From: a virus
IMG/VR virus record: IMGVR_UViG_3300007352_000009
Coordinates: 1-42,210 of that record
Strand: one strand, 5' to 3'
DNA length: 42,210 bases
Shown here piece after piece: positions 24,184 through 41,510 of this stretch (positions are counted from its first letter, which is position 1; each line of letters begins with the position of its first letter). The notes below the pieces were generated by a model. That model searched no databases. It had not been told where the DNA came from and saw nothing but the letters and a program-made list of their open reading frames with translations. The position numbers were made by a program, and so were the translations under genes.

Positions 24184-24195
24184 TTGTAACCCACT

Positions 24196-25082: not shown

Positions 25083-25236
25083 CGATTTTCCTCTCTCCAA
25101 AATCTGCTGAAAATGTAGCGCCGTCATTAAATTTAACTATTATTTGAGAAGGCACTTCCCCTATTTCATCCGAGATTATTAACGCAGCCTTTGCCATACC
25201 GTGTGCAGCAGCTACTGCACGCGCACTATTCTCCAC
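25066..25236 (-). CDS. Hypothetical protein, 56 aa
   Basis: The GTG at 25236 follows GAGAGG. Residues 1-25 form an Ala-rich helix; the second half (PSQIIVKFNDGATFSADFGE) is beta-like. It overlaps both neighbours by 11-17 bases, the pattern of this operon. Function unknown. Confidence 0.45.
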   Translation of the reverse strand: MENSARAVAAAHGMAKAALIISDEIGEVPSQIIVKFNDGATFSADFGERKIDAQTN

Positions 25237-25534: not shown

Positions 25535-26003
25535 TCTGGACTCCAAACGTTGTCGGCGTGACTTCCCGCTGCCAGTTCTGCAGCTTATGCCCAAATCGCG
25601 CTTTTACAGTAGCTACAACATCTTGCCAATACATCTCGTGATCCATACTCGGATCTGGCGGATTTACAATGGAAATGGCACGATCATCGATACCAAACAA
25701 TATGTGCGTTGGTTTCGGCAACGGAAACACGTAGTCAATTGGAATGTCATTGTGCTGAGCCCACGCTTTAATTTCTTCAATGACTTGATTCACGTCTTGA
25801 TATTTTCCATCAAGCCCAAGCATTGCAGTACGAGCAGTGAAAACCATAATACGTAGGCCCATGTGTTTAAATTCATATAGGGCTTTTCGTGCTCCCGGCC
25901 TCGGCTTTCCAAAGCGGGGATAGTGATTATCTTCGCAAAGTGTTCCATCCATATCCACCCAGCACCACGGATGGCTTACGGGAATATTCGTTTGCTGGCT
26001 CAT
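25524..26003 (-). CDS. HAD-superfamily phosphatase-like protein
   Basis: 159 residues from the ATG at 26003 (site GGTGGGAAA). All four HAD motifs are present: I WVDMDGTLCE (D17, D19), II VFTAR (T56), III Lys (K97 in LPKP), IV FGIDDRAI (D106, D107). It therefore probably removes phosphate from a small molecule or nucleic acid end. It is short and lacks a large cap, as in polynucleotide 3'-phosphatases and small nucleotidases; the substrate is unknown. A role in end healing together with RtcB is speculative. Confidence 0.75.
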   Translation of the reverse strand: MSQQTNIPVSHPWCWVDMDGTLCEDNHYPRFGKPRPGARKALYEFKHMGLRIMVFTARTAMLGLDGKYQDVNQVIEEIKAWAQHNDIPIDYVFPLPKPTHILFGIDDRAISIVNPPDPSMDHEMYWQDVVATVKARFGHKLQNWQREVTPTTFGVQSGS

Positions 26004-26140
26004 TTTCCCACCCACAGCAGACAGAAGTTAGAAGCTGCGTACGTCATCAGAAGTGCAGCTACCCACACAGAACCACGCAGCCCTTCATACACAGCTCCAC
26101 CGATGTAGAGTAGTACTGATGCCACCAGAAACCAGTTCAT
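26000..26140 (-). CDS. Small membrane protein, 46 aa
   Basis: A frame of 46 residues with two hydrophobic stretches (NWFLVASVLLYIGGAVY and SVWVAALLMTYAASNFCLLW). Start and stop both overlap neighbours by 4 bases (ATGA). The precise coupling argues that it is translated; function unknown. Confidence 0.55.
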   Translation of the reverse strand: MNWFLVASVLLYIGGAVYEGLRGSVWVAALLMTYAASNFCLLWVGK

Positions 26141-26649
26141 ACTTCACCATACCCATCAGGTCGAATATCTGTGCTACGACGGCCCCATGAAGGAAATGAA
26201 AAACGCCTACCGCCGCCCTTCAAGGAACAATGGTATTCAAAATCGTATTTTATACGACGATCTGCAGGCCCTTCTCTGCGTTCTAGTGACACTGTTCTGC
26301 CGTATTCTAAAATACTCTCCTGCCTCTCCTGCTCTTTCGCAATGCCTAGTCCCAGAGGCATATAGAGGCGCACGTCAAATGCCCGGCTCTTCAGTCCCTC
26401 AGACTCCACCTTGCCAGTCTTCGCCCATGCCAGCAGTGCCAGAATGTGCTTCATCACGTAGACTGCCCACACAGCCCGAGGGCCTACCGGCTTCTGACAG
26501 TGCGGACAGCAGACCAGCTCGCCTACGGTTTTGAAGTTGTTAAGCCGGTCAGAGTTACCAATTGTGTAATCGGCTCCTTTCGTCTCCCCGAGCTTCTTAT
26601 CCTGCTCGATGCACTCGTTTAGTAATTCATTAAATTCTGCAGCTTCCAT
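26137..26649 (-). CDS. Hypothetical protein, possibly nucleotide-modification-associated
   Basis: 170 residues. The core reads TIGNSDRLNNFK, a CCPHC zinc-like knuckle (47-51), GPRAVWAVYVMKHILALLAW and SRAFDVRLYMPLG. The order (DRLxNF, W.....KH, R..D.R.Y) resembles the small helical proteins near nucleotide-modification genes (DUF1599/Nmad group), but with an inserted zinc knuckle. The C-terminal 60 residues are basic. The assignment is tentative. Confidence 0.55.
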   Translation of the reverse strand: MEAAEFNELLNECIEQDKKLGETKGADYTIGNSDRLNNFKTVGELVCCPHCQKPVGPRAVWAVYVMKHILALLAWAKTGKVESEGLKSRAFDVRLYMPLGLGIAKEQERQESILEYGRTVSLERREGPADRRIKYDFEYHCSLKGGGRRFSFPSWGRRSTDIRPDGYGEV

Positions 26650-27005
26650 TCATCACCCTTTCGTGCCAGGTACATCAGTGTCAGCAAGTGTTCTAGTGTC
26701 ACAACAGCCAATGCTTCACTGTTATTCCGCCGTGTTACCAGTACTGGACGCCGGCCTACAGCTCTGGCATTCGTCTCTGCCTGCTTCCAGCAGGCGGGGA
26801 GTGAGAACGACTCCACGGCTTTCGCCTCGAATGCCACATGAAGCGGATCTGCCAGCACCGTGTTCAGCGCCATAACATCGACGCCCTTCTCGCCCATGAT
26901 GGCGCACTTCACCAACTCAGGATCATAATTAAACACTTGGATAATTAGATCCCGAATATGCTGTTGCAACCGCCTACCTTTGGCCTTTGCGCTTTTAGGT
27001 TTCAT
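26619..27005 (-). CDS. PD-(D/E)XK nuclease, Holliday-junction-resolvase-like
   Basis: 128 residues. KGRRLQQHIRDLI begins the fold; GEKGVDVMAL supplies the Asp (D43) and HVAFEAKA the ExK (E60, K62), the arrangement of archaeal-type Holliday junction resolvases and related phage nucleases. A following CWKQAE helix and PVLVTRRN strand fit. It would act on recombination or replication intermediates with the Cas4-like nuclease encoded nearby. The start overlaps the previous gene. Confidence 0.7.
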   Translation of the reverse strand: MKPKSAKAKGRRLQQHIRDLIIQVFNYDPELVKCAIMGEKGVDVMALNTVLADPLHVAFEAKAVESFSLPACWKQAETNARAVGRRPVLVTRRNNSEALAVVTLEHLLTLMYLARKGDEWKLQNLMNY

Positions 27006-27324
27006 TGATACACAATCCTTGAAATGCGATTTTCCGCATATCAGCCAAATGTGCTCTGACTGCTTCTATTTGGCCCACAGAGCCCAACCCCTGCGTTGGA
27101 CGAATACCAGCCTCGTAAAGCTGATCCATCAACCGTTGCGCTTGCTCTGGATCTAATCGCAACGTAGGAACATACGGTTGGCCCGGTCTATATTCAGTTA
27201 ACGTCAAAGGTTGAGCGACACTACGAGAAATGCCTTCGACTTCCGAATAGAATATGATCTTGTACGTGGGATCAAAAAAAGTAACTGGCTCCACGAAGCA
27301 CTTGAGCCTGATGTCTCCTATCAT
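26995..27324 (-). CDS. Hypothetical protein, 109 aa
   Basis: Begins with beta strands (MIGDIRLKCFVEPVTFFDPT, KIIFYSEVEGIS), then a helix with LDPEQAQRLMDQLYEAGIRP. It overlaps the nuclease gene by 11 bases and its start overlaps the previous stop. Not recognised. Confidence 0.55.
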   Translation of the reverse strand: MIGDIRLKCFVEPVTFFDPTYKIIFYSEVEGISRSVAQPLTLTEYRPGQPYVPTLRLDPEQAQRLMDQLYEAGIRPTQGLGSVGQIEAVRAHLADMRKIAFQGLCINET

Positions 27325-27548
27325 TTACCCCACTCCTTTTGCGACCACTTCTCGTTCAATTCTTCAAGGTCGTGTAAAATTTCAAGCACGCCTCGGCCCG
27401 AGTCAGTCTTAGGGGTATACGCAGCTCCAAGCAATAAATCATCAGCCACCAGCTTTATTACCTGCTTAAGAATCGTGCGTTTTGTCTGCCGATACTTTCG
27501 GCTTGTCGGAATACCTATGTTGTCCAAAACGTATCTTGGAACACTCAT
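27321..27548 (-). CDS. Hypothetical protein, 75 aa
   Basis: Basic N-terminal half with KYRQTKRTILKQVIKLVADD and an acidic C-terminal helix (EILHDLEELNEKW). ATGA overlap with the next gene. No family recognised. Confidence 0.5.
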   Translation of the reverse strand: MSVPRYVLDNIGIPTSRKYRQTKRTILKQVIKLVADDLLLGAAYTPKTDSGRGVLEILHDLEELNEKWSQKEWGK

Positions 27549-27553
27549 TTACT

Positions 27554-27790
27554 TCACTTTCTCTTAAACAACAGGCTCATTCGCACTTCCCGAGAGTCTG
27601 TTAGCACGTCAATGTGTGATTCAAGTTGAGAGTACACACGGCCTGCAATACTTGCAGTGGCTTCCTCCAAATCCCGTTCAAATTTTGTTATAGCTTCTTT
27701 CCGCAATCGCTCAGCCTCTTTGCTGATAGTGCTACGCAGAGCTTCGCTCAAAGCAGACATCAACGTCTCTGTTGTAATTTGCGAAGCCAT
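27554..27790 (-). CDS. Hypothetical coiled-coil protein, 78 aa
   Basis: Almost entirely one amphipathic helix (ALRSTISKEAERLRKEAITK, then FERDLEEATASIAGRVY). It starts directly after the exonuclease stop. No family recognised. Confidence 0.5.
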   Translation of the reverse strand: MASQITTETLMSALSEALRSTISKEAERLRKEAITKFERDLEEATASIAGRVYSQLESHIDVLTDSREVRMSLLFKRK

Positions 27791-28531
27791 CTACTTCTTC
27801 TCCCCTTTCCTCGCCCTGAACCAGTGGCCGCAATCATTGCATCGGAATCTGCGATACTTGTTCTGCGTCGTGTACGTAAACCCGCGAGACTGAAGCGACC
27901 GGCTGCCGCAATTCTCGCACGCAGGACGCTCCTGAAACAGCCGAGCGTTCAACCGCGCAGGCACCCACGGAGCCAGCTTCTTGTACACTCTCGGCAACAA
28001 TGCCACGTCTCGTCGGTTATACCGCAGCATTTTCAGCAGAGCTAATTCATCACCCCTGATGCAATCCTTCCACAAGTCGAAATCAGTTTTCAGTTTCTTG
28101 CCGACTTTCAATCGCTCTGCCAGATAAACCAGCCTGTTGCTATTGAAGTTAAACACCTTCTTTGCCATCTTCTTCGTGTCGATTTGCACACACGGAGGAA
28201 GAGGCGGAAGTCCATGTATAAGACACTGAGTCATAATCCAACGTATATCGAAGTTGTCTCCGTTATGAGCGCACCAAGCATCGGCTTGACTCATCACTTC
28301 ATGCAGCTTCAGCGTCACCTGCCGGTCATCTTTCGGGCTTGCCGGATCAACGCAGACAGACTCAACCTTTGAGCTGCCATACCATAGCCAGCTTGCACAA
28401 ATGATCGTCGCTTCTTCATCTATGTTCTCAGGCGATAAGTACCCGCCGTTGACTTTGAGACGCCAAAAGTATCCTTTATTTGGCGTCGTCTCAATGTCCA
28501 AAAACAGAATCTTTGGTTTAGAACCACTCAT
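27791..28531 (-). CDS. DEDDy 3'-5' exonuclease with C-terminal zinc ribbon
   Basis: 246 residues from the ATG at 28531 (site GGAGAAGG). RNase-H-like exonuclease motifs: FLDIETTP (D12, E14), AHNGDNFDIRW (D95), YNRRDV (Y171, D175), all four acidic residues present. A C-terminal zinc ribbon follows (C205, C208, C231, C234) in a transposase-like setting (CNDCGHWFRA), probably for DNA or RNA binding. It probably trims 3' ends during replication or repair. The fusion of these two parts is unusual. Confidence 0.8.
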   Translation of the reverse strand: MSGSKPKILFLDIETTPNKGYFWRLKVNGGYLSPENIDEEATIICASWLWYGSSKVESVCVDPASPKDDRQVTLKLHEVMSQADAWCAHNGDNFDIRWIMTQCLIHGLPPLPPCVQIDTKKMAKKVFNFNSNRLVYLAERLKVGKKLKTDFDLWKDCIRGDELALLKMLRYNRRDVALLPRVYKKLAPWVPARLNARLFQERPACENCGSRSLQSRGFTYTTQNKYRRFRCNDCGHWFRARKGEKK

Positions 28532-28631
28532 CACCTTCTCCAGGTCGAGCCGGGGGATCATCTCCCGGCCATGCACCTAACAGCAGAATGCCGAAGAGCA
28601 CTGCCGCAAACAGATACAACTCTGAATACAT
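28518..28631 (-). CDS. Small membrane peptide, 37 aa
   Basis: A 37-residue frame with one transmembrane helix (YLFAAVLFGILLLGAW) and an acidic tail. It starts directly after the previous stop and overlaps the exonuclease start by 14 bases. Function unknown; kept at moderate confidence because of the operon fit. Confidence 0.45.
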   Translation of the reverse strand: MYSELYLFAAVLFGILLLGAWPGDDPPARPGEGDEWF

Positions 28632-28991
28632 CTAGCAATCCTTCCAGTAGCCATTATCAGCAGCCCAATGAATCAAATGTTGCTGCTCATACGGCGTGAG
28701 TATTCGCATCACGTCCTGCTCTACCGCGTATACACGGTTGTGGTGCCAGCCTGGTTCAAGGCAGTGGATAGCCTCGTGAACCAGTGTTTCGATCATCTTC
28801 ACCAGGGATTGCCGAGGATTGATCAGGACTCGGCTGGACGCCATATCAGCCTCACCATACAGTGTCGGCTTAGACAACTCCTTGACCGTGAAGACAACTG
28901 TGAGCTTGCCATAGCGATAGGCAGCCAAGATACGTTCTTTAATGCTGTCTCGACGTTGCGCTCGCTCAGGGCTAAGCTTTCTTTCTGCCAC
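28632..28991 (-). CDS. SprT-like zinc metallopeptidase
   Basis: The GTG at 28991 follows AAAGG; the frame is open to 29021 (TTG). In the longer numbering the signature LVHEAIHCLEPGWHH lies at 80-94, with HEAIH as zinc and catalytic site and a further His pair downstream. It resembles SprT-family proteases, which in cells resolve DNA-protein crosslinks. It has no signal peptide. It lies between two DNA nucleases, so a role in DNA repair or removing bound proteins is plausible. Confidence 0.7.
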   Translation of the reverse strand: MAERKLSPERAQRRDSIKERILAAYRYGKLTVVFTVKELSKPTLYGEADMASSRVLINPRQSLVKMIETLVHEAIHCLEPGWHHNRVYAVEQDVMRILTPYEQQHLIHWAADNGYWKDC

Positions 28992-29727
28992 GGCTTGCAC
29001 CTTTCGGCTTTGGCTCTCCAACCAGCACTCTCAGTGGATAGCGTCCTTCCGGTTTGCAATTTTCGTAGAACGGGCACACAGACTGCACTTCACCCTTGTA
29101 GATGTTCGCGCACATCCAATCCGGGCACAGGTCTACTTTCGTCGGCTGCTTCGTGTTAACCGCATCGAGCAGCCTATCTTTCTCCGCAACCAATGCATCC
29201 CGGATGTCTTTACGCTCTTGCGCCGTTAACTCGATGCGCCACGACACGATCTCAAGCGTTGAAGGCTTGGAGCCGTCCCAGCGTCTGCCTGAATTGGTGT
29301 AGAGCACGACCACATGGCCGATTGGAGCATCTTCCATAGCCATGTACGCCGTAATCTGATCCACGTACCGGGGCTCGCATTCCTCCGGCACAGTGTACTT
29401 GCGGGAAGTCTTTAGCTCTGTAGACTCACCGTCAGGCGGGCGTAAGTCTTGCGTACCGACCACTCCACAATGCTTAACCTTCTGCTCTGCATACTCAATG
29501 CCGCACACATGTTGAAACAGAAGATGCCACGCCTCACCAGCCGCAAAAAGGCCCACCATTTCGTCAGTGACACGTTCCCCGAGTAGTCGCACCCAATAAG
29601 CTTTCCGTGGTGCCAAAAGCTCAGATACATGGACTTCATCAGGTTTCAGCTCCCTCGGCTTACTGAACGCTTCTTTGACGAATGACCAGATTTCGTTAGC
29701 TCTCGCATTATCTTTTGTAATCCTCAC
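28972..29727 (-). CDS. Cas4/RecB-like PD-(D/E)XK nuclease
   Basis: 251 residues. Motifs in order: VSELLAPRKAYW (34-45), GEAWHLL (H68), a possible Asp at D94, STELKTSR (E104, K106) and YVDQITAYM (Q124, Y128). The C-terminal cysteines C201, C206, C218 and C224 could bind an iron-sulphur cluster or zinc. Canonical Cas4 has a Cys in the first motif (CPRK); here it is Ala39, while four C-terminal cysteines remain. It probably degrades DNA ends in recombination. It overlaps the metallopeptidase. Confidence 0.78.
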   Translation of the reverse strand: MRITKDNARANEIWSFVKEAFSKPRELKPDEVHVSELLAPRKAYWVRLLGERVTDEMVGLFAAGEAWHLLFQHVCGIEYAEQKVKHCGVVGTQDLRPPDGESTELKTSRKYTVPEECEPRYVDQITAYMAMEDAPIGHVVVLYTNSGRRWDGSKPSTLEIVSWRIELTAQERKDIRDALVAEKDRLLDAVNTKQPTKVDLCPDWMCANIYKGEVQSVCPFYENCKPEGRYPLRVLVGEPKPKGASRGRKKA

Positions 29728-30215
29728 GCAACATTCTTTCTCTTGTTCTCTGACTGCTGACGGTTAGTTGCCCATCGGCAGTTGCTAGGCTCGTAATTGC
29801 CATTGACATTAACGCGATCTAGCGTCATACCCGCAGGACGTTCGCCCATGTCTGCCAGGAAGTTTTCAAACTGCAACCAACGCTCACAGACCTTAATGCC
29901 TCTACCTCCGTAATGATGCCAGTCGTGGCGTTTAGCTTGTGTACAACGAGCCACCATACTGCGCCACGATTGATACGTTGAAGAGGGAGAAGATCCCTGC
30001 AAACTATGCCCATGCTTAAATAGCTTACGTCTACCTTCTTTAGTTGCGACCAACCTTCTGCGACACCCACATGATTTTATTTCTCCTGATTTGATGTGAG
30101 TATACCTCGCGATAAACCACTCTCCGCAGTGACACTCGCACCACCATTGGCTGTGTCCAGAATTAGCAATAGAATGCTGGCGAACAAGGAGAGAGTTGTC
30201 CTTAATTACCTTCAT
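29724..30215 (-). CDS. HNH/AP2-type homing-endonuclease-like protein (copy 2)
   Basis: Paralogue of the genes at 2151 and 30783, sharing YQSWRSMVARC, YGGRGIKVCERW, FLADMGERP, TLDRVNVNGNYEPSNCRWAT, and a Cys cluster (CECHCGE, SCGC) in the N-terminus. The catalytic His of the HNH motif is Arg in DRV. The start chosen is the ATG at 30215; the frame is open to 30239. It overlaps the Gly-rich gene by 14 bases and ends at the Cas4-like start. Confidence 0.8.
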   Translation of the reverse strand: MKVIKDNSLLVRQHSIANSGHSQWWCECHCGEWFIARYTHIKSGEIKSCGCRRRLVATKEGRRKLFKHGHSLQGSSPSSTYQSWRSMVARCTQAKRHDWHHYGGRGIKVCERWLQFENFLADMGERPAGMTLDRVNVNGNYEPSNCRWATNRQQSENKRKNVA

Positions 30216-30552
30216 TCCCGCCGCCCTGCTCGCTGCCATCTGAGAGCATGACGGAGAGATTCAGCATGTCGCTGTTCTTACGCTGCCCGACGTACAGCAT
30301 GTCACCCACCTGCAGGCTTTGCAGGCACTCCAAGATTTCTTCATTGATAAATACCGAATGCCCACTCTTGCCAGGGAACAAGCCCGTAATGTTCTTCCAC
30401 TCACGGTCCTGCTGCTCCTGTTGCTGTTGCCGGCCACGACCTTTGAAGTTGCTTTTGCCGCCGCCGCTATTCCCGCCACGGCGGAAGTTGCTGCCTCCAC
30501 CGCCACGATTGCCGCCACCACTGTAGCTCTTTCGACCATTCCCCCAAGCCAT
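30202..30552 (-). CDS. Gly/Arg-rich (RGG-like) nucleic-acid-binding candidate
   Basis: 116 residues. Residues 1-45 are almost all Gly, Arg, Asn, Ser (GGGGSNFRRGGNSGGGKSNF), an RGG-like low-complexity arm, then a Gln run. The C-terminal half (WKNITGLFPGKSGHSVFINE, QVGDMLYVGQRKNSDMLNLS) is a small beta-rich domain. RGG-type arms bind single-stranded nucleic acid and its neighbours are nucleases, so a role as single-strand-binding protein is plausible but unproven. Confidence 0.6.
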   Translation of the reverse strand: MAWGNGRKSYSGGGNRGGGGSNFRRGGNSGGGKSNFKGRGRQQQQEQQDREWKNITGLFPGKSGHSVFINEEILECLQSLQVGDMLYVGQRKNSDMLNLSVMLSDGSEQGGGNEGN

Positions 30553-30779
30553 TATTCAACAACCTCCATACTCAGCGTATTATCACCATCAAACACCAAT
30601 CCATACTGTTTCAGATATTCAACTTCACGAGGCCACAGTCTGACCGACCTTCCGGGGGTCAATGTCAACAATAGATGCTCTGTGCCATCGGAAGTTTCTG
30701 CCAGCAAATCAACATCCTGTCCGTCTTCTCTCAAAAAGAAGTGAAGATCATCTTTGCTATTCCGTACTTTGAATCCCAC
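30552..30779 (-). CDS. Hypothetical beta-rich protein, 75 aa
   Basis: Short strands (FFLREDGQDVDLLAETSDG, EHLLLTLTPGRSVRLW) and few helices. Its stop overlaps the start of the Gly-rich gene. It lies between two HNH genes that flank this gene pair. Not recognised. Confidence 0.55.
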   Translation of the reverse strand: MGFKVRNSKDDLHFFLREDGQDVDLLAETSDGTEHLLLTLTPGRSVRLWPREVEYLKQYGLVFDGDNTLSMEVVE

Positions 30780-30782
30780 TGC

Positions 30783-31265
30783 TTATCCCTCCTTACTTGT
30801 CTTTCGTTTGTTATACGCCTGTTGACTCCATGTTGCCCATCGGCAATTGCCAGGCTCATAATTGCCATCTACATTAATTCTATCTATCGTCATGCCTACA
30901 GACGGCTTTTCGCCCATATCTGCTAAGAAGTTTTCAAACAACATCCAGCGTTCGCAGACACTAATCCCCCTCCCACCGTAATGAATATAAGCATCATGCT
31001 TAGGATTAAAACAGCGTTGCTTCATCGCATACCAAGAAAGGTATGTGCTCCCTTTCCCTTTTTGGCTTTGACCATGCTTAAAACTTCTAGTAGCTGTAGC
31101 TTCCCGATGTAAGCATCCACAAGATTTAGTGTTGCCTGACTGCAAGTTGTACTCAAGAACAATCAGGATCTCACCGCACGAACACTCACACCAATAACGA
31201 GCTTGCCATCGTTTGCTGGATTTAGCTCGGTTAATGACAGTCAGCCTGCCAAAATTAGCCTTCAC
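30783..31265 (-). CDS. HNH/AP2-type homing-endonuclease-like protein (copy 3)
   Basis: Paralogue of 2151 and 29724: YLSWYAMKQRC, YGGRGISVCERW, FLADMGEKP, TIDRINVDGNYEPGNCRWAT, with N-terminal Cys cluster (CECSCGE, SCGC). GTG start at 31265, overlapping a 35-residue frame. The Arg-for-His change in the HNH motif is shared by all three copies. Confidence 0.8.
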   Translation of the reverse strand: MKANFGRLTVINRAKSSKRWQARYWCECSCGEILIVLEYNLQSGNTKSCGCLHREATATRSFKHGQSQKGKGSTYLSWYAMKQRCFNPKHDAYIHYGGRGISVCERWMLFENFLADMGEKPSVGMTIDRINVDGNYEPGNCRWATWSQQAYNKRKTSKEG

Positions 31266-31362
31266 GGCTAGTCAGAAACCATTGCACCAATCGCTGATCC
31301 GCGTTTGGACTGATGATCAGCCTCATCCCATTCTTCAGCAAGATCACTGTTTTGCCGTTCAT
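31255..31362 (-). CDS. Hypothetical small protein, 35 aa
   Basis: A 35-residue frame (NGKTVILLKNGMRLIISPNA) with an ATGA start overlap and an 11-base overlap with HNH copy 3. Two short strands are likely. Low complexity is absent, which favours a real gene, but the length limits confidence. Confidence 0.4.
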   Translation of the reverse strand: MNGKTVILLKNGMRLIISPNADQRLVQWFLTSREG

Positions 31363-31571
31363 ACCAGTACCTCATCGTATTCAGCAACAAGTGAGATGCC
31401 ATTCGGCGGCTCTACCTCATTGATACCGCAGTCATTTTCCTTACAAATAACATCGCGCCACTTGTCTAGAGCCTCTTCGTATGTCTTAGCTAAAACGAAC
31501 AACGGCCTATCTGAATCCTGAACATAGTAGAGATTTCGGTTTTCAGAATCGCAATGCATTTTAGGATGCAT
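31359..31571 (-). CDS. Hypothetical protein, 70 aa
   Basis: The ATG at 31571 overlaps the upstream stop (TAATG); the frame is open to 31604. Acidic, with a helix (LAKTYEEALDKWRDVICKEN) in the middle. Not recognised. Confidence 0.5.
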   Translation of the reverse strand: MHPKMHCDSENRNLYYVQDSDRPLFVLAKTYEEALDKWRDVICKENDCGINEVEPPNGISLVAEYDEVLV

Positions 31572-31915
31572 TACGCCGTCCCCCGAGGCTTCCGAGCCGG
31601 CCATGACCGCTTCGGAGCTTCTGCAGGTCCAGCAGTCTCAGTCGCAGGAGCAGCGGCCTCTTCCACCTGAGCCGTGTCTGCCGTATCCGGCGTAGGGTAT
31701 TTGGGAGCCCCCGTCACATCTCGCAACGTCTGCTTCCGAGGCCGGCCCACTGGACGCGGAGCCTGCTCAGCAGCAGCTTCCTTCGTATTCCGAATGTCGG
31801 CATTTAGCACCGCCTGCCGATACTCATGTACCAGGTCAATTAACTTACCCGGCACATTCACCGAGTCGATCATCTGCAACGCCAATTCTTGATGCTCTTG
31901 CTTGTCAAACTGCAT
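31571..31915 (-). CDS. AT-hook-like DNA-binding candidate, 114 aa
   Basis: A helical N-terminus (QEHQELALQMIDSVNVPGKL), then PRPVGRPRK (54-62), which matches the AT-hook core GRPRK, then a disordered Ala/Pro/Glu-rich tail with a basic end (KRSWPARKPRGTA). Binding to AT-rich DNA is plausible; the role is unknown. It overlaps the upstream gene by 11 bases. Confidence 0.55.
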   Translation of the reverse strand: MQFDKQEHQELALQMIDSVNVPGKLIDLVHEYRQAVLNADIRNTKEAAAEQAPRPVGRPRKQTLRDVTGAPKYPTPDTADTAQVEEAAAPATETAGPAEAPKRSWPARKPRGTA

Positions 31916-32186
31916 ACGATTTAGCCTCCGACTTAGTAGTTACAACATGTTCAACGACAAGCCTACCAATAACCCGGCGCAGGTTATGGCTGATTACACA
32001 TCTAGTAACCTGCTCCAAAGACCCCCTAGAAGAGAAGTACGACGACACCCCATCCAAATCCGCTAAAATGTACATTACGTCTGTGCCATTTAACGGAGAT
32101 CCGGCGTTTACAACAATATAGTGCTCGTTATTTTCATCCACAAAAATCTGCCCCGGCTTCACAGTTTCCGTGTTATCACACGGCAT
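31905..32186 (-). CDS. Hypothetical beta-rich protein, 93 aa
   Basis: Residues 10-70 alternate strands (GQIFVDENNEHYIVVNAGSP, DVMYILADLDG, SSYFSSRGSLEQVTR). The ATG follows the previous gene by 3 bases with a GGAGGAAAGG site. Not recognised. Confidence 0.55.
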   Translation of the reverse strand: MPCDNTETVKPGQIFVDENNEHYIVVNAGSPLNGTDVMYILADLDGVSSYFSSRGSLEQVTRCVISHNLRRVIGRLVVEHVVTTKSEAKSYAV

Positions 32187-32189
32187 GGT

Positions 32190-32351
32190 TTACCCCTTTC
32201 CTCCAAGATGGTCCATTTCAGCCTTAATGAACATATCCGCTACTTCATTCGCTGTCGGCACAGGGCGGTTAGGATCTGCCAGTGCCGAGGCGTACTCGTT
32301 GTAAAACTGCCGCTGCGCCCGAGCCAGCGCATTCTTGTCTACTTTCTCCAT
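32190..32351 (-). CDS. Hypothetical helical protein, 53 aa
   Basis: A 53-residue frame (DKNALARAQRQFYNEYASAL, EVADMFIKAEMDHL) with AGGAGA 8 bases before the ATG, which directly follows the previous stop. Helical throughout. Function unknown. Confidence 0.55.
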   Translation of the reverse strand: MEKVDKNALARAQRQFYNEYASALADPNRPVPTANEVADMFIKAEMDHLGGKG

Positions 32352-32471
32352 CTATTTCTTCTCCTTTCCGCATAACAACGCATGGTCCTTGATTTCCTTA
32401 GCAGTGAATTGGAACACTTCAGTGCAATGATCACACTTTCGATCTTTCACAGCTTTAGCTTCTCGTCCCAT
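32352..32471 (-). CDS. Small zinc-finger protein, 39 aa
   Basis: First gene after the structured region and terminator at 32491-32823. It has a strong GAAGGAGGCGTA site. KCDHCTEVFQF with C13/C16, and a later His and Cys (KDHALLCGKE), form a possible C2HC finger. It may bind nucleic acid. Its expression probably depends on read-through of the terminator 20 bases upstream. Confidence 0.55.
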   Translation of the reverse strand: MGREAKAVKDRKCDHCTEVFQFTAKEIKDHALLCGKEKK

Positions 32472-32490
32472 TACGCCTCCTTCAAGTAAT

Positions 32491-32515
32491 AAAAAACCCT
32501 GCCACCTGAGCAGGG
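32491..32515 (-). terminator. Intrinsic terminator upstream of the 32471 gene
   Basis: On the minus strand CCCTGC and GCAGGG pair perfectly around a 7-nt loop, followed by T6. It would stop leftward transcription before the middle operon. No strong promoter is seen between it and the following start, so regulated read-through is likely. Confidence 0.85.
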
Positions 32516-32823
32516 TCTAGGTTGTTGCTGGGAGCCGCCAGCGGTCCTTGCGTCCTTCAGCTATTGGCCCCAGCTAAGCTTTTTTACCAGCACTCCTAAA
32601 ATTTAAGCCCACTTCCGGCGTCCTATAAGGGAACGCTCGCCTCGTGACAGGCACTCCGATTTGAGCAGGCTGATACGCCACGGCCACCTGCTATTTGTCG
32701 GCTCTTCCGCATCAAAGTGTCAGCGTACCCGGGGTCTGACACTGGCGTTAGTTTATAATACGGAAGCGGGCTTACTGCTTTATGCTGATATTCTCTACTC
32801 GTTTAACAGTCACTATAACAGCT
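32516..32823 (-). ncRNA. Structured intergenic RNA between polymerase and middle operon
   Basis: 308 bases without a convincing gene. On the minus strand it can form a chain of hairpins: AGTGTCAG/CTGACACT (32716-32743), AGCAGG/CCTGCT (32664-32692), GCCT/AGGC (32639-32652), a bulged stem at 32618-32636, and a long stem at 32528-32537/32566-32574, ahead of the terminator at 32491-32515. Many stems before a terminator suggest a cis-acting regulator (riboswitch-like or put-type antiterminator). It matches no family I can name. Confidence 0.5.
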
Positions 32824-35217
32824 TTATTCCCACCTATCCAGCACTGCTACCTCTGCTGTAATCGGCACTGCCATATCCACGCCAAAAGCTGCCTTGATCA
32901 GCCCATTCAAATTACCAGCTACCCGCTCAACAGCTGCAAGTGCAATTGCGTCATCCTTCGGAGCCACATCATCTATAAACGCATCGTGTCCCTCTTGCAC
33001 CATCAGCGGAAGCCCCCGATGCCACACAAGCCGCTTATACTCGTCCTGCACTGCCAGCCGGTAAATCACCAGAATCGAATGCCCGGCTGACTGCACGATA
33101 CGATTGATCGCCTCTCGCTCGATGGCCGGCGTAATTGCCTGATCAAACTCCCACCACTGGCCAAACGGATTCTCGATCTCACCAGTCGAGTGTAACTTCT
33201 GCAGCACATGCTCTTTCCAGCGGCTAACGCCGGGGTAGAGATTCTGCACCTTATGGTACAGCCTCCAATCCTCCTTCCCCGCTACTGCAAATAGCTTCTC
33301 TGGCCCAGCTCCGTACACGCCGGCAAAGTTAAACGTCTTGCCGATCTTCCGTTGCTCCGGCGTCACTTGCTCAGGCCGGATGCCAAATACACGAGCAGCA
33401 GCGTCCCTATGGATATCGACACCATCAATAAAAAGCTGACAAAGTTTCGGATCTGCACTGAGATGGGAAATGATGCGGTACTCGATGGCAGACAAGTCGC
33501 TGACAAGCAACTTACCGCCGATATAACGAGAAGTAAATAGTCCACGTAGCGGTTTCTCCACATTCTGCATGTTCGGCTGCTTACATCGCAGCCTAGTTGT
33601 CTCTGCCCCTGACACCTGGTAGTGAGCATGAATCAGTCCGTCACCGTCAGGATGCCAAATCTTGCGCCGGTACTCGTAGCAATTCGTATTCAGCTTCTTA
33701 TGCGTGCTCTTGACTTCGAGCAGCAACTTCGCAGCCGGACACTTGTCTTGGATCTCGCCCAACACCTGCTCATTTGTCGCATCAACATCAAAGCCCATCG
33801 CATGAAATAGCGCCTTCATCTGCTGAGGGCTATCGACGTTAATCCCTGCTTCCTCAAATCGAGCCACAAAGTCAGCCTGCTTCTTCGGCAACTTCGACGG
33901 ATCTTTCGACTTGATTTGCGCCGTGGCGATATGTAAGAAGTCAGCCTTGTAACGCCAAGCCAGCTCCTGCAGCTCCTTCTCTTTTACTGCTGCATACGTC
34001 TCCAGCTCTGCGATCTTGTTATCAAGTGCTGCCGGATCAACCGCAATACCGTTCAGCTCCGTGTCGCGGATTGCCGGCAGATAATCCATTGCCAGCTGAA
34101 AGCTTGATGACGGATGCTCTTCCTTCTGCTGATCCCTGAATAGGGCATAGTGATACATCAAATCCAGCGTCAAGTACGGTTCAATCAGCTCCGGCATTTG
34201 ACTGGATAAGATGCCTCGATCCCACTCCGTATGCACCTTGGCTTCATATGCTGAGGCTCCGTACATTGACTTTGCCAGCCACTTCAAGCCAACACTATGA
34301 CGACTCCGCTTCGGCTGCGTCGTATGCCACAAATACGTGTCGTGAAACGTGGCTTTTGGAAACTCGATGCCTTCAGCTCCGAGGAACACCACGTCGCCCT
34401 TGATGTTGTGGCCATAGATAACGCCAGTATATTCAGCAGCCAACTTCTTCAGCAGGGAATAGAAGCCGGGATGATCGGACGGATGTAACTCAGGAATCAA
34501 ACAGAACCACGTTCCGTCCGTCAGCCCGAGCATGGCTAGCTTGCCGCCCTCGTAAGGATAGACAAACTGCTCATCCCGATCACGAGCATCTTTAGGCACG
34601 TCGATTTCAATATCCAAACCAATGGCCGGCTGTTGAAACAGCTCGATTAAATACTGATCCATAGGCAGCCCCGGCACAATAAACTTTCGATCTGGTAACT
34701 CATACTGAAATGGGCGCAGCACCGTCTCTAGTACTACTCGTGCGTGCTCTCGCTTCTCATCAAACTGCCATTGGCTGATGCCATACGTATGCTGAACAAG
34801 GTGCTGATCCTTCATGCGGGCTTTGTACAGCAGCCCACCCTTGCCTTCCAGCTTCCGCACGCCGCCATAGAGCGAGCTAACAGCTTCCTCGCCAATCGTC
34901 ACAATCGGCAGAGTCGGGTATTGCAGTAGCAGCGGGTTGACGTACGCTTCCCGGCATTCTTTGATCACCGGCAAATCCGGCTTGTACCGATTGCGGCAAT
35001 TCGCCGCAGCTACGATCACCGGAGTAATGTCAAGCCCGTCACACACCTGCTGCAACGTGTCCAGCTCATTCTGCGTCAACGGCTGCGTCACCAACAGAAT
35101 GATGTTAGGGGCCATCTCAGGGTCATCAAACGGCTCAACAAACTGCTTCTCCTTCTGTACACCCCAAGGGCAACTTGCACAGCCGGGAATCTTCAATGGC
35201 TTCTTAGCCTTTGACAC
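32824..35217 (-). CDS. polA-like: Family A DNA polymerase with N-terminal UDG-like domain
   Basis: 797 residues. Residues 1-135 resemble an iron-sulphur uracil-DNA-glycosylase-like domain (C13, C16, C74, C88; VTIGEEAV), without the usual catalytic motifs. Residues about 175-360 form a DEDD proofreading exonuclease (D202, E204, D275, D352). The polymerase follows, with motif A SDLSAIEYR (D574), motif B RKIGKTFNFAGVYG (R623, K627, F631) and motif C HDAF (H744, D745). It probably copies the phage genome with the helicase and primase encoded upstream. GTG start at 35217, overlapping rtcB by 14 bases. Confidence 0.92.
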   Translation of the reverse strand: MSKAKKPLKIPGCASCPWGVQKEKQFVEPFDDPEMAPNIILLVTQPLTQNELDTLQQVCDGLDITPVIVAAANCRNRYKPDLPVIKECREAYVNPLLLQYPTLPIVTIGEEAVSSLYGGVRKLEGKGGLLYKARMKDQHLVQHTYGISQWQFDEKREHARVVLETVLRPFQYELPDRKFIVPGLPMDQYLIELFQQPAIGLDIEIDVPKDARDRDEQFVYPYEGGKLAMLGLTDGTWFCLIPELHPSDHPGFYSLLKKLAAEYTGVIYGHNIKGDVVFLGAEGIEFPKATFHDTYLWHTTQPKRSRHSVGLKWLAKSMYGASAYEAKVHTEWDRGILSSQMPELIEPYLTLDLMYHYALFRDQQKEEHPSSSFQLAMDYLPAIRDTELNGIAVDPAALDNKIAELETYAAVKEKELQELAWRYKADFLHIATAQIKSKDPSKLPKKQADFVARFEEAGINVDSPQQMKALFHAMGFDVDATNEQVLGEIQDKCPAAKLLLEVKSTHKKLNTNCYEYRRKIWHPDGDGLIHAHYQVSGAETTRLRCKQPNMQNVEKPLRGLFTSRYIGGKLLVSDLSAIEYRIISHLSADPKLCQLFIDGVDIHRDAAARVFGIRPEQVTPEQRKIGKTFNFAGVYGAGPEKLFAVAGKEDWRLYHKVQNLYPGVSRWKEHVLQKLHSTGEIENPFGQWWEFDQAITPAIEREAINRIVQSAGHSILVIYRLAVQDEYKRLVWHRGLPLMVQEGHDAFIDDVAPKDDAIALAAVERVAGNLNGLIKAAFGVDMAVPITAEVAVLDRWE

Positions 35218-36364
35218 ACAGCACCTGTCGCAATTGCGTGACTATTTTGACTAGATCCTCTTGCTGCTGAATAACTGATTCAATCGGTTTGTAAGCACCA
35301 GGAATCTCGTCAAGCACAGCAGCATCCTTACGGCACTCGACCCCATGGGTCTGGGCTGCCAGATCGTCGATGGTGAACGATCGCTTGGCCTGCCCACGAG
35401 ACATCTTTCGCCCGGCCCCATGCGACGCAGAGCAGAACGACTCGGGATTGCCGAGACCGCGCACAATGAACGACGAGGTACCCATTGAGCCCGGGATAAT
35501 GCCGAATTCGCCTTCTCGGGCGCTGATCGCACCCTTCCGGGTGACGAAGACTTCTTCCCCGAAATGGACTTCCTCCGAGACATAGTTGTGGTGGCACTGA
35601 ATCGGCGGATCGAAGTTAACCATCAGGCCATGAAACGCCGCGCTGACCACGGCCATAAGACGCGCCAGCATCACCGACCGGTTCAGGTACGCATACCGCT
35701 GTGCCCACAGCAGATCATGGCGGTACGCGGCCATTTCTGGCGTGCCAGCCAAGAACACGGCGAGGTCTCGATCGGGCAGGTCATGATTGTGTGCGAGCGT
35801 CTTGGCAGTCTCAATATGGATCTCGGCCAGCGTTTTGCCGATGTTGCGTGACCCCGAGTGCAGCATGATCCACACCGTGTCGTGGGTATCCAGGCATACC
35901 TCAATGAAGTGATTCCCGCCCCCGAGCGTCCCGAGCTGGCGCCGTGCCCGGCCTTCCAGATCCTGGACCTCACGCGCTAAGCACTCGAAGGTCTCAAACA
36001 GGTCCGCCCCGCTATGGACGGGATCGGGATGGTCACTGAACCCTACCGGAATGGTCGCCTCTATCTCAGCGCGCAAGGCAGAGAGGGTATCTGGAAGCTG
36101 TGCGGCCGTCAGGGAGGTCTTCACCGCCGCCATGCCGCATCCAATGTCCACGCCCACGGCTGCGGGGCTTATGGCGTTCTTCATCGCAATGACGGAGCCA
36201 ACGGTAGCACCCTTCCCGTAATGCACATCTGGCATGACTGCAACGTGGTGATACGCCCACGGCAACGCAGCGATGTTCTTCAACTGATCAAGTGCCTGTA
36301 ACTCCACTTCATACACAGGAGCCCACAGCTTAATCGGCACTACCTTTCCTTGAAGAGTATCCAT
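35204..36364 (-). CDS. rtcB: RtcB RNA ligase
   Basis: 386 residues, close to bacterial RtcB. It joins RNA 2',3'-cyclic phosphate ends (or 3'-phosphates) to 5'-OH ends using GTP and Mn2+. Visible residues: D73 and C76 in VGVDIGCGMAAV, H152 in GGGNHFIE, H169 in LHSGSRN, H259 in CHHNY, and the guanylated His (H315) in SHGAGRKMSR; all look intact. The ATG follows an AGGAGA site. A tRNA gene lies 17 bases upstream, so the phage may repair its own or host tRNAs cut by anticodon nucleases. Confidence 0.95.
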   Translation of the reverse strand: MDTLQGKVVPIKLWAPVYEVELQALDQLKNIAALPWAYHHVAVMPDVHYGKGATVGSVIAMKNAISPAAVGVDIGCGMAAVKTSLTAAQLPDTLSALRAEIEATIPVGFSDHPDPVHSGADLFETFECLAREVQDLEGRARRQLGTLGGGNHFIEVCLDTHDTVWIMLHSGSRNIGKTLAEIHIETAKTLAHNHDLPDRDLAVFLAGTPEMAAYRHDLLWAQRYAYLNRSVMLARLMAVVSAAFHGLMVNFDPPIQCHHNYVSEEVHFGEEVFVTRKGAISAREGEFGIIPGSMGTSSFIVRGLGNPESFCSASHGAGRKMSRGQAKRSFTIDDLAAQTHGVECRKDAAVLDEIPGAYKPIESVIQQQEDLVKIVTQLRQVLCVKG

Positions 36365-36381
36365 CCGTTTTTCTCCTAAAA

Positions 36382-36458
36382 TGGTCTGCGAGGCAGGATT
36401 TGAACCTGCGGCCTCCTGGTTCCAAGCCAGGTCGTCTACCAGACTGACTTACTCGCAG
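36382..36458 (-). tRNA. tRNA-Pro(UGG), CCA encoded
   Basis: A 77-nt cloverleaf: acceptor CTGCGAG/CTCGCAG (perfect), D-loop with GG, anticodon stem CCTGG/CCAGG with loop CTTGGAA (anticodon UGG), T-arm GCAGG-TTCAAAT-CCTGC, and encoded CCA. The D-stem has one weak pair. It lies between the primase stop (its 5' end abuts it) and rtcB, within one leftward transcript. Confidence 0.93.
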
Positions 36459-37223
36459 TTAACTAAGCATCTCCTGCACCTGCGCTTCGCTAAAATCCGT
36501 GGGGTCTTTCCCGTCTACGCTATAAATCTTTACCGTCTTTGCTACGGTGGACAACTGCTCCGCAATCTCCACCGAGCCGGCAAAGCCGGGCAAATCTCCG
36601 TCCAGCGCAATCACCACATCCCGGCCTGCCAATTGAGCATTGAGACTACCGTTGTAGTGCCTACCACACAAGCCCACGCTATCAGCCCATTGCGAAATGT
36701 AGGCTGCGTCTCCGATGCCTTCACAGAGTACGACCTTGCCGTACTTCTTCGGCCCCAGCGCCCAGCTGATCCAATGGTGCCGAGGGCCGGGCGGATTAAG
36801 ATAGGGGCGAGGGGCGTCACCCATTGCCCGAGCCACGAACCATTTGCACTGTTGCTGCTCGTCGTAGACGGGAAGAATCAGGTACCAACAATCACCAATG
36901 AACCGTTCAAGCTCCGGATACGTAGCAGATAACACATCAGGTAAGCACCAACCAATTCTATGCTGCAGTATCGTCGTCATCGGAACAGGCCACGGTTGCA
37001 GATTTGCCCACTCGTCATCAGCCACAAACTGTTTTGTGGGTGGCAGCCCTCGCCACTCTCCAGCCACCCGCATCGAGTGCTCTGATTCCTCTGCTTCCCA
37101 CACCGAGCCGCAACCAAAGCACTTCATCAGCTTATTACCGTCTCGGCTAAACTCTGACCAATAGCTCTCTCTACGGCAGCTACACGTCACGTTCCACCTG
37201 TCCTTCAATCTGCATGGTGTCAA
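36459..37223 (-). CDS. DNA primase with zinc finger and TOPRIM domain
   Basis: 254 residues. The N-terminus holds a zinc finger (C14, C16, C35, C38), as in T7 gp4-type primases, and the C-terminal half a TOPRIM fold: VVLCEGIGDA (E168), VVIALDGDLPG (D208, D210), GKDPTDF (239-245). It makes RNA primers and probably works with the helicase encoded by the overlapping upstream gene; in T7 the two are one protein. The start is uncertain: the ATG at 37223 lies inside the helicase gene, and a GTG at 37190 has a nearer AGGTGG site. Confidence 0.85.
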   Translation of the reverse strand: MTPCRLKDRWNVTCSCRRESYWSEFSRDGNKLMKCFGCGSVWEAEESEHSMRVAGEWRGLPPTKQFVADDEWANLQPWPVPMTTILQHRIGWCLPDVLSATYPELERFIGDCWYLILPVYDEQQQCKWFVARAMGDAPRPYLNPPGPRHHWISWALGPKKYGKVVLCEGIGDAAYISQWADSVGLCGRHYNGSLNAQLAGRDVVIALDGDLPGFAGSVEIAEQLSTVAKTVKIYSVDGKDPTDFSEAQVQEMLS

Positions 37224-38079
37224 AATTACATTCCCATGCGCTATACCGATGCTTAATCCTCCGGCCCTTCCCCTTGCCCAGCTCCAGCTGGTAGTACGTG
37301 TCGTGGTTCTCTACCAGCAACAGCATCACGTCTGCGTGAGACGATTTGCCGACTCGACTACGATACAACCGCGTCATGGCCGAGCGTCGAAAGCTACTCC
37401 GCTGCCGGCCTTGAGCATCGGGCGGATAATTCAGCTGCGTGCCGGTAATCACCGTAGTCTGGTACTTCTTCGCCAGGCCACGCAGGGCTTTTGTGGTGTA
37501 GCTCACATCCAGCCAATCGGCCTCATGCCCGCTACCAGTAATCAGGTCCAAGTAATCCACTACCACGAAGTCAGGCGGCGCTGTCTTCGCCAGCTCGCCA
37601 ATCGTGGCGTCTATCGACGCAATACTAAAGCTCTGATCCTGAACATCGGCCACGTACAAATTCTCCGGCCGCTGATCCAGCGTCGAAGCCTTCTCATAGA
37701 TTTCCAGTACGTCACCTACCAGATCCTCGCCATTGAAATGCAGGATGGTGGCTCCCTGATTCAGGTAACAGCTCGCCGTGAAGACCATGAAGTGTGTCTT
37801 CCCCTGGTGAGGCACTCCGCCGATGATCATTAGCTCTTCTTGGCGCAGACCACCACCAAGAATTTCGTCGTACCAGTCTAGGCCGGTACTGAGGAACGGC
37901 TTTTTAAGACCTTCAGGAGGGAGTTCATTAACGCGATATATAGGAATAGCCGCGTGAGTACTGTCTTCCCCGATTGCCTGCTCAAGCGTAGCGATTGCAC
38001 GGCGTACGTCGGCCTCTGATCCGCTCGTCCAAGCTTGCTGTATGTGTTTAGCTCCGTCACTCAGTTTCCCTTTGTCCAC
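37180..38079 (-). CDS. DnaB/RecA-type replicative helicase
   Basis: 299 residues. A RecA-fold ATPase with Walker A GVPHQGKT (88-95), Glu118 in NGEDL, Walker B FVVVDYLDLI (D175), and a Gln/Asn motif at 215-217 (TQLNY). It lacks the N-terminal domain of DnaB, as in T7 gp4-like helicase halves. It unwinds DNA ahead of the polymerase; the primase follows with a 44-base overlap. GTG start at 38079 with a weak site. Confidence 0.88.
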   Translation of the reverse strand: MDKGKLSDGAKHIQQAWTSGSEADVRRAIATLEQAIGEDSTHAAIPIYRVNELPPEGLKKPFLSTGLDWYDEILGGGLRQEELMIIGGVPHQGKTHFMVFTASCYLNQGATILHFNGEDLVGDVLEIYEKASTLDQRPENLYVADVQDQSFSIASIDATIGELAKTAPPDFVVVDYLDLITGSGHEADWLDVSYTTKALRGLAKKYQTTVITGTQLNYPPDAQGRQRSSFRRSAMTRLYRSRVGKSSHADVMLLLVENHDTYYQLELGKGKGRRIKHRYSAWECNFDTMQIEGQVERDV

Positions 38080-38233
38080 TCTTTTTCACTCGTTCCAGCT
38101 CATGAATCAGCCCAATGACATCATCGTTATTATAGCTTTCGTACAACCCAAATTCTGCATCAACAGACTCAAACATATGACAACTGAGCACATCCAGAAT
38201 CTTATCCATCAATTCTTGAGAGATGTTGTACAT
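38057..38233 (-). CDS. Hypothetical acidic protein, 58 aa
   Basis: A 58-residue frame (MYNISQELMDKILDVLSCHM, DAEFGLYESYNNDD). Its ATG overlaps the upstream stop (TAATG) and its end overlaps the helicase start by 23 bases. Acidic; a DNA-mimic role cannot be judged. Confidence 0.55.
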   Translation of the reverse strand: MYNISQELMDKILDVLSCHMFESVDAEFGLYESYNNDDVIGLIHELERVKKSGQRETE

Positions 38234-38613
38234 TAGACCGCTCCATCTAATCTACGCTGCAACTTTCTCACAATTGATGGTGCCGCGGTACGTATTGCGT
38301 GCTCCTGCGCCCAGTTTTCAACCCACCGCAAGGTAGATGTCCCTGCCGGCAGCCGGGGAGTGGCCGAATCTTGCAACAACCCTCCGTCTACCAAGTCCCG
38401 CAACCGGCGTCCAGTACTGTGTGCTTCCGCTCCTTCCTCGTACAAGGTAACTGGCAGACGCACAGAATCCAGAGTAAGTATGCCACGATTTAAGTAACAA
38501 TTAACCGCACGCCGCATTTCTCGTCGTACTTCTTCTACTTCTATAGCGGTCATCTCGCTGGGGTTAACCGCCATATCTATCCCCATGTAGTAGCGTGCTG
38601 CATCACCGTACAA
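38233..38613 (-). CDS. Hypothetical protein, 126 aa
   Basis: TTG start at 38613 with a strong GGGAGG site; ATG alternatives lie 9 codons in. Helical, with IEVEEVRREMRRAVNCYLNR, and a C-terminal basic helix (SIVRKLQRRLDG). The position before the helicase suggests a replication accessory or loader; no motif confirms it. Confidence 0.55.
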   Translation of the reverse strand: MYGDAARYYMGIDMAVNPSEMTAIEVEEVRREMRRAVNCYLNRGILTLDSVRLPVTLYEEGAEAHSTGRRLRDLVDGGLLQDSATPRLPAGTSTLRWVENWAQEHAIRTAAPSIVRKLQRRLDGAV

Positions 38614-38714
38614 AGTACCTACCTCCCATGAGCGTACTTCCTGCTCGACCGCGTGTTCCCGCCTCGCTTGCGTTGTAGTCTCTGCTTCCGGTCACATGCC
38701 GGATGTGTGACTAC

Positions 38715-39089
38715 TTATGCTTCTAATCCCAGCTTCTGCCGCTTCGCTTTCGTCCCGAACAGCTGCTTTACCCTCCGCTCGATGGCGCGATAGGTGCGCT
38801 TTGCTTTGCCATAAAAATAATAGTCTACTTCATCAAAAAAGCGCATACCAAGATGCTCTAACTGTGTTGTAGGATCAAAAATTCCACTGCAACTAGCAAT
38901 CTTAGGATCGCGCTGATAAAGCTCCTTCGGATCAACCTTCAATTTCATAGCCTGCTCACCAACAGCGCAGGTGTCCCAATTTCTTGCCCTTTCGTAGATC
39001 TCTTCTTGGGCATTCTTATCCCCAGCTTGCGCCAGGTCCAGCAATGCCATACACTTCAATTTTGACGCTTGCTTCTTCGTAATCGCCAT
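38715..39089 (-). CDS. Hypothetical helical protein, 124 aa
   Basis: The ATG at 39089 has an AAGGAGGG site; the frame is open to 39116. N-terminal basic helix (AITKKQASKLKCMALLDLAQ), acidic middle, C-terminal basic helix (RAIERRVKQLFGTKAKR). Mostly helical; no family recognised. About 100 bases without a convincing gene follow. Confidence 0.55.
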   Translation of the reverse strand: MAITKKQASKLKCMALLDLAQAGDKNAQEEIYERARNWDTCAVGEQAMKLKVDPKELYQRDPKIASCSGIFDPTTQLEHLGMRFFDEVDYYFYGKAKRTYRAIERRVKQLFGTKAKRQKLGLEA

Positions 39090-39090
39090 G

Positions 39091-39363
39091 TCACGATCCC
39101 TCCTTCTCACCTTCACGCTTCACAATCACTTCAGATCCCCCGAAATCGTAGTCCGACAGGGGGATACCACCATTCCGAAACGTCGGGATTGCTGTTGCTC
39201 CCCCGACCTGCTCTGACTTCGGAGGCTTCGGGTACTCGACAAATCCGCAATTGACACACTTCCAATGCCCGTCCAACCGTTCCCCAGCGCCTTCTGTTGC
39301 AAACTCATAGATAACGTCCGACACCCACCCGTAGGCACTGCCACCGCACTTGGGACACTGCAC
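39091..39363 (-). CDS. Zinc-ribbon protein, 90 aa
   Basis: First gene behind the operator-bearing promoter at 39388-39417. Two CxxC pairs (C3/C6, C36/C39) form a zinc ribbon; the tail is disordered and charged (VIVKREGEKEGS). GTG start, site AAAGGAAA. It may be a regulator or nucleic-acid-binding protein that starts the replication transcript. Confidence 0.65.
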   Translation of the reverse strand: MQCPKCGGSAYGWVSDVIYEFATEGAGERLDGHWKCVNCGFVEYPKPPKSEQVGGATAIPTFRNGGIPLSDYDFGGSEVIVKREGEKEGS

Positions 39364-39387
39364 GCTGTTTCCTTTCGCTGTGACAGT

Positions 39388-39417
39388 ACTATATCACATC
39401 CCTGACAGCACTGTCAA
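39388..39417 (-). promoter_or_regulatory. Leftward promoter of the replication operon
   Basis: On the minus strand TTGACA (39412-39417), 18-bp spacer, TATAGT (39388-39393). The start of transcription would lie near 39381, giving a leader of about 18 nt. It drives primase, helicase, rtcB and polymerase. The -35 overlaps the short membrane frames at 39394-39584. Confidence 0.8.
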
Positions 39418-39495
39418 GAGAAATCGTGCAACCTCCATGCCACAAACAAACCCGAATGCGGCTCCTGTTGCACAGCCGATAATAAACCAGGCCAC
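39394..39495 (-). CDS. Tiny membrane protein, 33 aa
   Basis: A GTG overlaps the stop of the preceding 29-residue frame. A hydrophobic core (WFIIGCATGAAFGFVCGM) suggests one membrane helix. The same frame stays open to 39576, giving a 60-residue alternative. Its 3' end lies in the promoter region, so the two functions overlap. Confidence 0.4.
   Translation of the reverse strand: MAWFIIGCATGAAFGFVCGMEVARFLLTVLSGM
39403..39416. promoter_or_regulatory. Putative operator, TGACAG-CA-CTGTCA
   Basis: A perfect inverted repeat of 6-bp arms with a 2-bp centre, placed over the -35 box and the start of the spacer. A further TGACAG lies at 39381-39386. The same half-site occurs at the other phage promoters, so this looks like the best copy of a common repressor site. 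Confidence 0.65.
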
Positions 39496-39584
39496 TATTG
39501 CACCAACCGCTCGAACCACTGTGCCAGTGCCACCGCCACCGCTGACGCCAATGCAACCGGCCACGACTCGCGCCAATAACTCAT
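39495..39584 (-). CDS. Tiny membrane protein, 29 aa
   Basis: A 29-residue frame starting 5 bases after the upstream stop, with an Ala/Val hydrophobic segment (WPVALASAVAVALAQWF). Coupled to the next frame by one-base stop/start overlap. Function unknown; it may be a membrane-active peptide. Confidence 0.35.
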   Translation of the reverse strand: MSYWRESWPVALASAVAVALAQWFERLVQ

Positions 39585-39588
39585 GCTG

Positions 39589-39783
39589 TCACCCTTTCAA
39601 GGCTTCCCCGCCCTCGACGTTGCCAAACCGCTTTTTCAGGGCTCGCAACTCAGCTTTAATTTCCTTGAATCGCCCCACTAACCAGTGTTCTGTGTCTTCC
39701 TGTATGCTGGGAAGATGCAACAACGCGGCAGTAAACAGTAAGCGTTTCCTTAATTCTGCCATTCTATGATGTATGTTTACCAT
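39589..39783 (-). CDS. Hypothetical helical protein, 64 aa
   Basis: The ATG at 39783 overlaps the upstream stop by 7 bases; a longer frame to 39903 is less likely. Helical with several basic clusters (MAELRKRLLFTAALLHL, EIKAELRALKKRFG). No family recognised. Confidence 0.5.
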   Translation of the reverse strand: MVNIHHRMAELRKRLLFTAALLHLPSIQEDTEHWLVGRFKEIKAELRALKKRFGNVEGGEALKG

Positions 39784-40808: not shown

Positions 40809-40811
40809 GAT

Positions 40812-41027: not shown

Positions 41028-41028
41028 G

Positions 41029-41169: not shown

Positions 41170-41172
41170 GGC

Positions 41173-41508: not shown

Positions 41509-41510
41509 AG

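Follow-up and report, generated by a model that had tools for sequence, protein, structure and literature searches.

The window analysed here is the whole 42,210-bp record of a phage, which is complete and circular, with ends that overlap by 99 bp. The portal is kin to T7-like podophage portals, and with its tyrosine integrase gene the phage is described as temperate. Early genes on the minus strand run in the order helicase, primase, tRNA-Pro, RtcB RNA ligase and family-A DNA polymerase, followed by a gap and, 3′ of it on the same strand, by a series that ends with the integrase and consists of small genes, HNH endonucleases and nucleases. The gap spans 32823–32489, between the polymerase stop (32824) and the next start (32471). 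A neutral spacer of about 300 nt would be out of the ordinary in this region, where the genes are tightly packed. The first downstream ORF encodes 39 residues and returned no match in a family search.

The neighbourhood has further features. Within the replication operon, tRNA-Pro(TGG) is followed directly by the RtcB RNA ligase gene (36458–35204, minus). Both are missing from the matching place in the one whole relative recovered (below), and the pair possibly serves tRNA repair against host anticodon nucleases. Three free-standing HNH endonuclease-like genes that resemble one another occur in this 42-kb genome, at 2151–2615 (+), 29724–30239 (−) and 30783–31265 (−), of which a PHROGs scan covered the third only. 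On the minus strand 3′ of the integrase, GGTAGCA and GTAGCAATCCGG repeats at 22080–22300 resemble integrase arm sites, and the GTAGCAATCCGG motif is found again near 1160.

The gap is non-coding. It contains no sense-strand ORF longer than 39 aa and, pol-antisense ORFs excepted, no antisense ORF longer than 66 aa. A tblastx search for a coding remnant gave nothing convincing, and the start codon that follows is well placed behind a GGAGG ribosome site. A group I intron was considered and rejected, given that Rfam returned no match and that an alignment with other polymerases shows the C-terminus of this one to be complete. The stretch has the look of a separate transcript, with a promoter that is likely its own, a non-coding RNA that folds and a strong signal to stop. 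The features are collected in Table 1.

Table 1. Features at the junction between the polymerase gene and the downstream operon; positions are those of the window.
Feature	Position	Strand	Details
Family-A DNA polymerase (upstream gene)	32824–35217	−	PF00476, E 7.8e-46
Promoter-like site	32812–32840	−	TGGATA-17-TATAGT, extended −10 (TG); overlaps the polymerase stop; CTGTTA after the −10
Predicted non-coding transcript, ~316 nt	32489–32806	−	Predicted start after the −10 to the end of the T-run; fold z −3.14
Closed domain	32585–32790	−	P0 + P1, enclosing P2, an ambiguous P3, P4 and P5; from pair probabilities
P0	32790–32782/32593–32585	−	9 bp, two G-U pairs; p = 0.024 for the flanks
P1	32774–32761/32617–32604	−	14 bp, one G-U pair; pair probability 0.99
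P2	32743–32736/32723–32716	−	Pair probability 0.89
P4	32652–32649/32642–32639	−	Pair probability 0.88
P5	32636–32631/32623–32618	−	Pair probability 0.64
P6, separate hairpin	32527–32574	−	GCUGGGGCC...GGC..CCCAGC; pair probability 0.99
Intrinsic terminator hairpin	32494–32518	−	AGACCCTGCT-CAGGT-GGCAGGGTTT + TTTATT; T-run to ~32489
First downstream ORF, 39 aa	32352–32471	−	CxxC...H...C, zinc-finger-like; GGAGG ribosome site 32480–32476

The gap closes with a strong intrinsic terminator, which upholds a claim of the preliminary description. A 10-bp stem with a loop of 5 nt (−14.7 kcal/mol) precedes the T-run. In terminator scans covering 1–20000 and 22300–42210, the total number of matches equals that expected by chance, so the scan by itself is no proof, and the weight lies on how strong the hairpin is. 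By that measure, only one other match combines at least 10 bp with a long T-run, at 22371–22406 (+), where the late genes end. No other strong terminator follows further along the minus strand in the scan. The terminator ends 20 nt ahead of the next ATG, and GGAGG follows the T-run after about 10 nt. Such an interval is too short to hold a promoter, and the next gene therefore needs read-through. The promoter just downstream of the terminator that would have spoken against such dependence is not found; a promoter-like site lies upstream of the RNA instead. Read-through had been proposed to extend through the integrase. It may serve at most about 32471–24000, as a promoter-like site at 23557–23528 belongs to the integrase itself. 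In the weight-matrix scan, the next sites of note on the minus strand come only at a distance, at 28471 and, ahead of the integrase, at 23533.

A simple weight-matrix scan of both strands puts the promoter-like site overlapping the polymerase stop at rank 17 among all positions; the −35 of this site (TGGATA) is poor. Transcription would be expected to start near 32806, giving a predicted RNA of about 316 nt. Three promoters in the genome match the consensus at 11 or 12 of 12 positions and have TG ahead of the −10; they lie at 39417–39388 (−), 828–857 (+) and 1413–1442 (+). CTGT(C/T)A stands directly 3′ of the −10 in two of these three and in the polymerase-stop site. The pattern TATARTN(0-3)CTGTYA occurs four times in the genome, including the polymerase-stop site and two strong promoters, against an expectation of 0.02 that is optimistic, the pattern having been devised after the sites were aligned. 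By prediction, this signature puts the polymerase-stop site among the promoters of the phage itself. The earlier view that the region has no clear internal promoter is thus probably wrong.

These promoters have surroundings of interest in their own right. The strongest, which are these three and one at 571–543 (−), overlap TGACAG/CTGTCA half-site repeats, for example TTGACAGTGCTGTCA at 39403, which look like a shared repressor operator. Between the near-consensus promoters at 828–857 and 1413–1442 lies a stretch of about 550 nt without a convincing gene (860–1412, +). It is far more structured than the gap, with 160-nt windows reaching z −5.9 at 881 and −5.1 at 961, and it holds TCCGGCAG(A/T)AA repeats (1168, 1254 and 1284), perfect hairpins and the GC-skew minimum at 1363. 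This stretch is a candidate replication origin or large non-coding RNA.

The RNA of the gap had been described as at least five hairpins in series. In the best computed fold, the hairpins are mostly nested within a single domain, closed by the long-range helix P1 and its extension P0, with P6 and then the terminator following. P1 is what is unusual here, since a helix of this kind was reached in 1 of 1000 shuffles (p = 0.001). The predicted transcript (32806–32488) has a z of −3.14, with 1 of 150 shuffles equally stable. The overall stability of the gap is only moderately unusual (−118.7 kcal/mol against −105.9 for shuffles, z −2.29; opposite strand, z −1.89), and 160-nt local windows at the gap give z values of about 0. 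The term 'highly structured', taken to mean many strong hairpins, is thus not upheld.

These values bear on the plainest explanation of the locus, an ordinary boundary in which a strong terminator closing the replication genes comes with a neutral spacer, the fold is incidental and leakage or an unseen promoter expresses the next genes. The flat local z fits this explanation, as do the 16 of 176 equal-length minus-strand windows that have a lower z than the gap and the finding of no conservation. P1, its P0 extension (p = 0.024), the promoter-like site ahead of the spacer and the oddity of a neutral 300-nt spacer among tightly packed genes all argue against it. Because the overall stability is unremarkable and the searches gave no homologue for covariation, a plain boundary retains some probability, and we regard it as rather unlikely.

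The arms of P1 also allow the stretch to be read as a small inverted-repeat insertion element, with TA-flanked ends, TAAGCCCGCTTCCG and CGGAAGTGGGCTTA, inverted at 13 of 14 bases; in its favour, the stretch is missing in the relative. However, pairing runs on outside the arms with G-U pairs (P0), and no second copy was found in the window, phages, plasmids, E. coli or 274 genomes. This explanation is the least probable of those considered, and we give it very little credence.

The fold was further assessed for a competing structure at the terminator. While the 3′ arm is still to be transcribed, the 5′ arm of the terminator can pair with the beginning of the transcript. Masking of the arm shows no excess over shuffled leaders (mean pairing 0.64 against 0.68, p 0.53). 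Because shuffled leaders pair with the arm alike, no signal or regulated read-through is indicated. An antiterminator formed by repeated segments (CCUGCUCA, present twice) was rejected, its pairing being not above chance, and the locus contains no boxA-like sites.

Homologues of the gap were sought at several levels. A 'distant' blastn search against phages, plasmids and E. coli gave no match, nor did 274 whole genomes of the relative's class, a search that had no positive control. Against 18 RtcB-bearing phage records, only chance matches of 14–21 nt appeared. Rfam 15 returned nothing on the gap strand within the gap, either at the gathering score or at E up to 5, and two chance snoRNA matches on the same strand both fall outside it. 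A covariance model of the P0/P1 domain, built from the single sequence, recovered only itself among 53 sources and nothing among 101 genomes. Close relatives were sought in viral and genome sets with PolA, portal, TerL, RtcB, helicase and a Pol motif fragment, which yielded TerL and portal fragments at 50–68% identity and RtcB relatives without this Pol.

One whole relative was obtained, contig JAJFKZ010000176.1 (L054; 39,097 bp), binned in a gammaproteobacterial MAG, with a TerL of 56% identity and a gene order that matches the phage in the head and replication parts. Its polymerase shows about 37–41% identity in the C-terminal part and is split in two: at 2985–6708 (−), other ORFs separate an exonuclease-like ORF of 351 aa for the N-terminal part from a polymerase ORF of 397 aa for the C-terminal part. 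In another related contig, L002, the large terminase at 640–2985 (781 aa) contains an intein-like insertion of about 320 aa.

At the polymerase junction of L054, the next ORF begins about 60 nt after the polymerase stop. The spacer carries TTGACA-17-TATACT (2963–2935, minus, 11 of 12 bases) and small inverted repeats directly before that ORF, and both the RNA and the terminator are missing. To judge from the two sequences, a promoter at this junction is common to both phages by position, while the RNA and terminator occur in this phage only, a comparison of two genomes that fits gain here and loss there alike. Since L054 keeps its promoter right before the next ORF without an RNA, the polymerase-stop promoter likely drives the downstream operon, which would place the RNA in the operon's leader.

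The best single reading is thus that promoter, RNA and terminator form a cis-acting leader or attenuator that throttles the downstream operon and also releases a 316-nt RNA, a tentative proposal to which we assign a probability of roughly 0.4. It preserves the cis-acting regulator of the preliminary description, without the riboswitch and put identities suggested for it. The cassette sits between the replication genes (helicase, primase, tRNA-Pro, RtcB and PolA) and the next operon. A predicted σ70-type promoter over the polymerase stop would start a transcript near 32806, which would fold into the long-range-helix domain, one hairpin and the intrinsic terminator. Most polymerases, whether from this promoter or from an early promoter further upstream, would stop at the terminator, and the fraction reading through would form the mRNA of the downstream operon, as the geometry suggests. 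With the downstream operon presumably transcribed by such read-through, the terminator would act as its throttle.

Several observations favour the cassette, namely the position of the terminator, the promoter with the phage signature, P1 and P0 beyond chance, the z of the transcript and the promoter in L054. Against it are the lack of a homologue, the moderate stability, an antiterminator no better than chance, the poor −35 and a promoter pattern formed post hoc. The main rival is that promoter and terminator delimit a stand-alone phage gene, whose small RNA of about 316 nt would work in trans on a protein or RNA of the host or the phage. This accounts for the facts nearly as well as a leader does: a promoter-like site lies directly 5′ and a strong terminator directly 3′ of a folded non-coding stretch, which is missing in L054 as expected of an accessory gene. 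Yet the terminator lies right before the next ribosome site and makes the next gene depend on read-through, no relative exists in the collections searched and no target is known. We consider a trans-acting role unlikely, if less so than a plain boundary.

The more ambitious proposal of a new class of phage regulatory RNA, in which the 200-nt domain would sense a phage or host factor and set read-through behind the replication genes, is improbable and is unsupported by the present evidence, which includes no relative with the RNA. If the leader were confirmed, it would provide a further case of an integrase phage gating its replication genes from the next operon with an RNA and a terminator. 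Because L054 has the promoter but no RNA at the junction, deleting the RNA would be a direct test of its effect. Wider interest would follow only if close relatives showed a conserved structure or a read-through signal emerged.

Among known systems, put RNA needs no protein to suppress, in cis, the terminators that follow it. The put RNAs of HK022 are about 70 nt long, form two stem-loops near early promoters and act on several terminators, at least 10 kb away (PMC9378689). Like them, the RNA described here is a folded phage RNA that lies in cis ahead of a terminator, here between that terminator and a promoter-like site in a temperate phage. A put-like role, in which RNA polymerase would ignore this and later terminators, had been suggested for it. 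Such a role is very unlikely: the RNA exceeds 290 nt, has a long-range closed domain and lies behind the polymerase gene, so that size, fold and place all differ, and no other strong terminator follows on the minus strand, whereas put acts on several.

GOLLD, ROOL and OLE, large ornate RNAs of phages and bacteria, are in Rfam or far larger. They share with the present RNA the character of a long folded non-coding RNA, some of them phage-borne (PMC12286853), whereas the RNA here has no Rfam match. Nor does it match any known riboswitch aptamer family in Rfam 15, which leaves the riboswitch suggestion unsupported. Phage-encoded stand-alone small RNAs have their own promoter and intrinsic terminator. 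The predicted discrete non-coding transcript resembles them in having both signals, the terminator clear and the promoter predicted, with a poor −35 and the phage's signature; it differs in that its terminator adjoins the next gene and in that no sequence relative was found.

Transcription-attenuation leaders comprise terminator-type 5′ leaders of operons and terminator-type riboswitches. The present locus has no competing antiterminator fold beyond chance, and ORF and Rfam searches recognised no leader peptide or ligand domain. It shares their plan: a promoter-like site, a folded leader and a terminator close before the first ribosome site. By prediction, the cassette is orphan in sequence and ordinary in plan, and with modest confidence that general plan is the one known from attenuator leaders.
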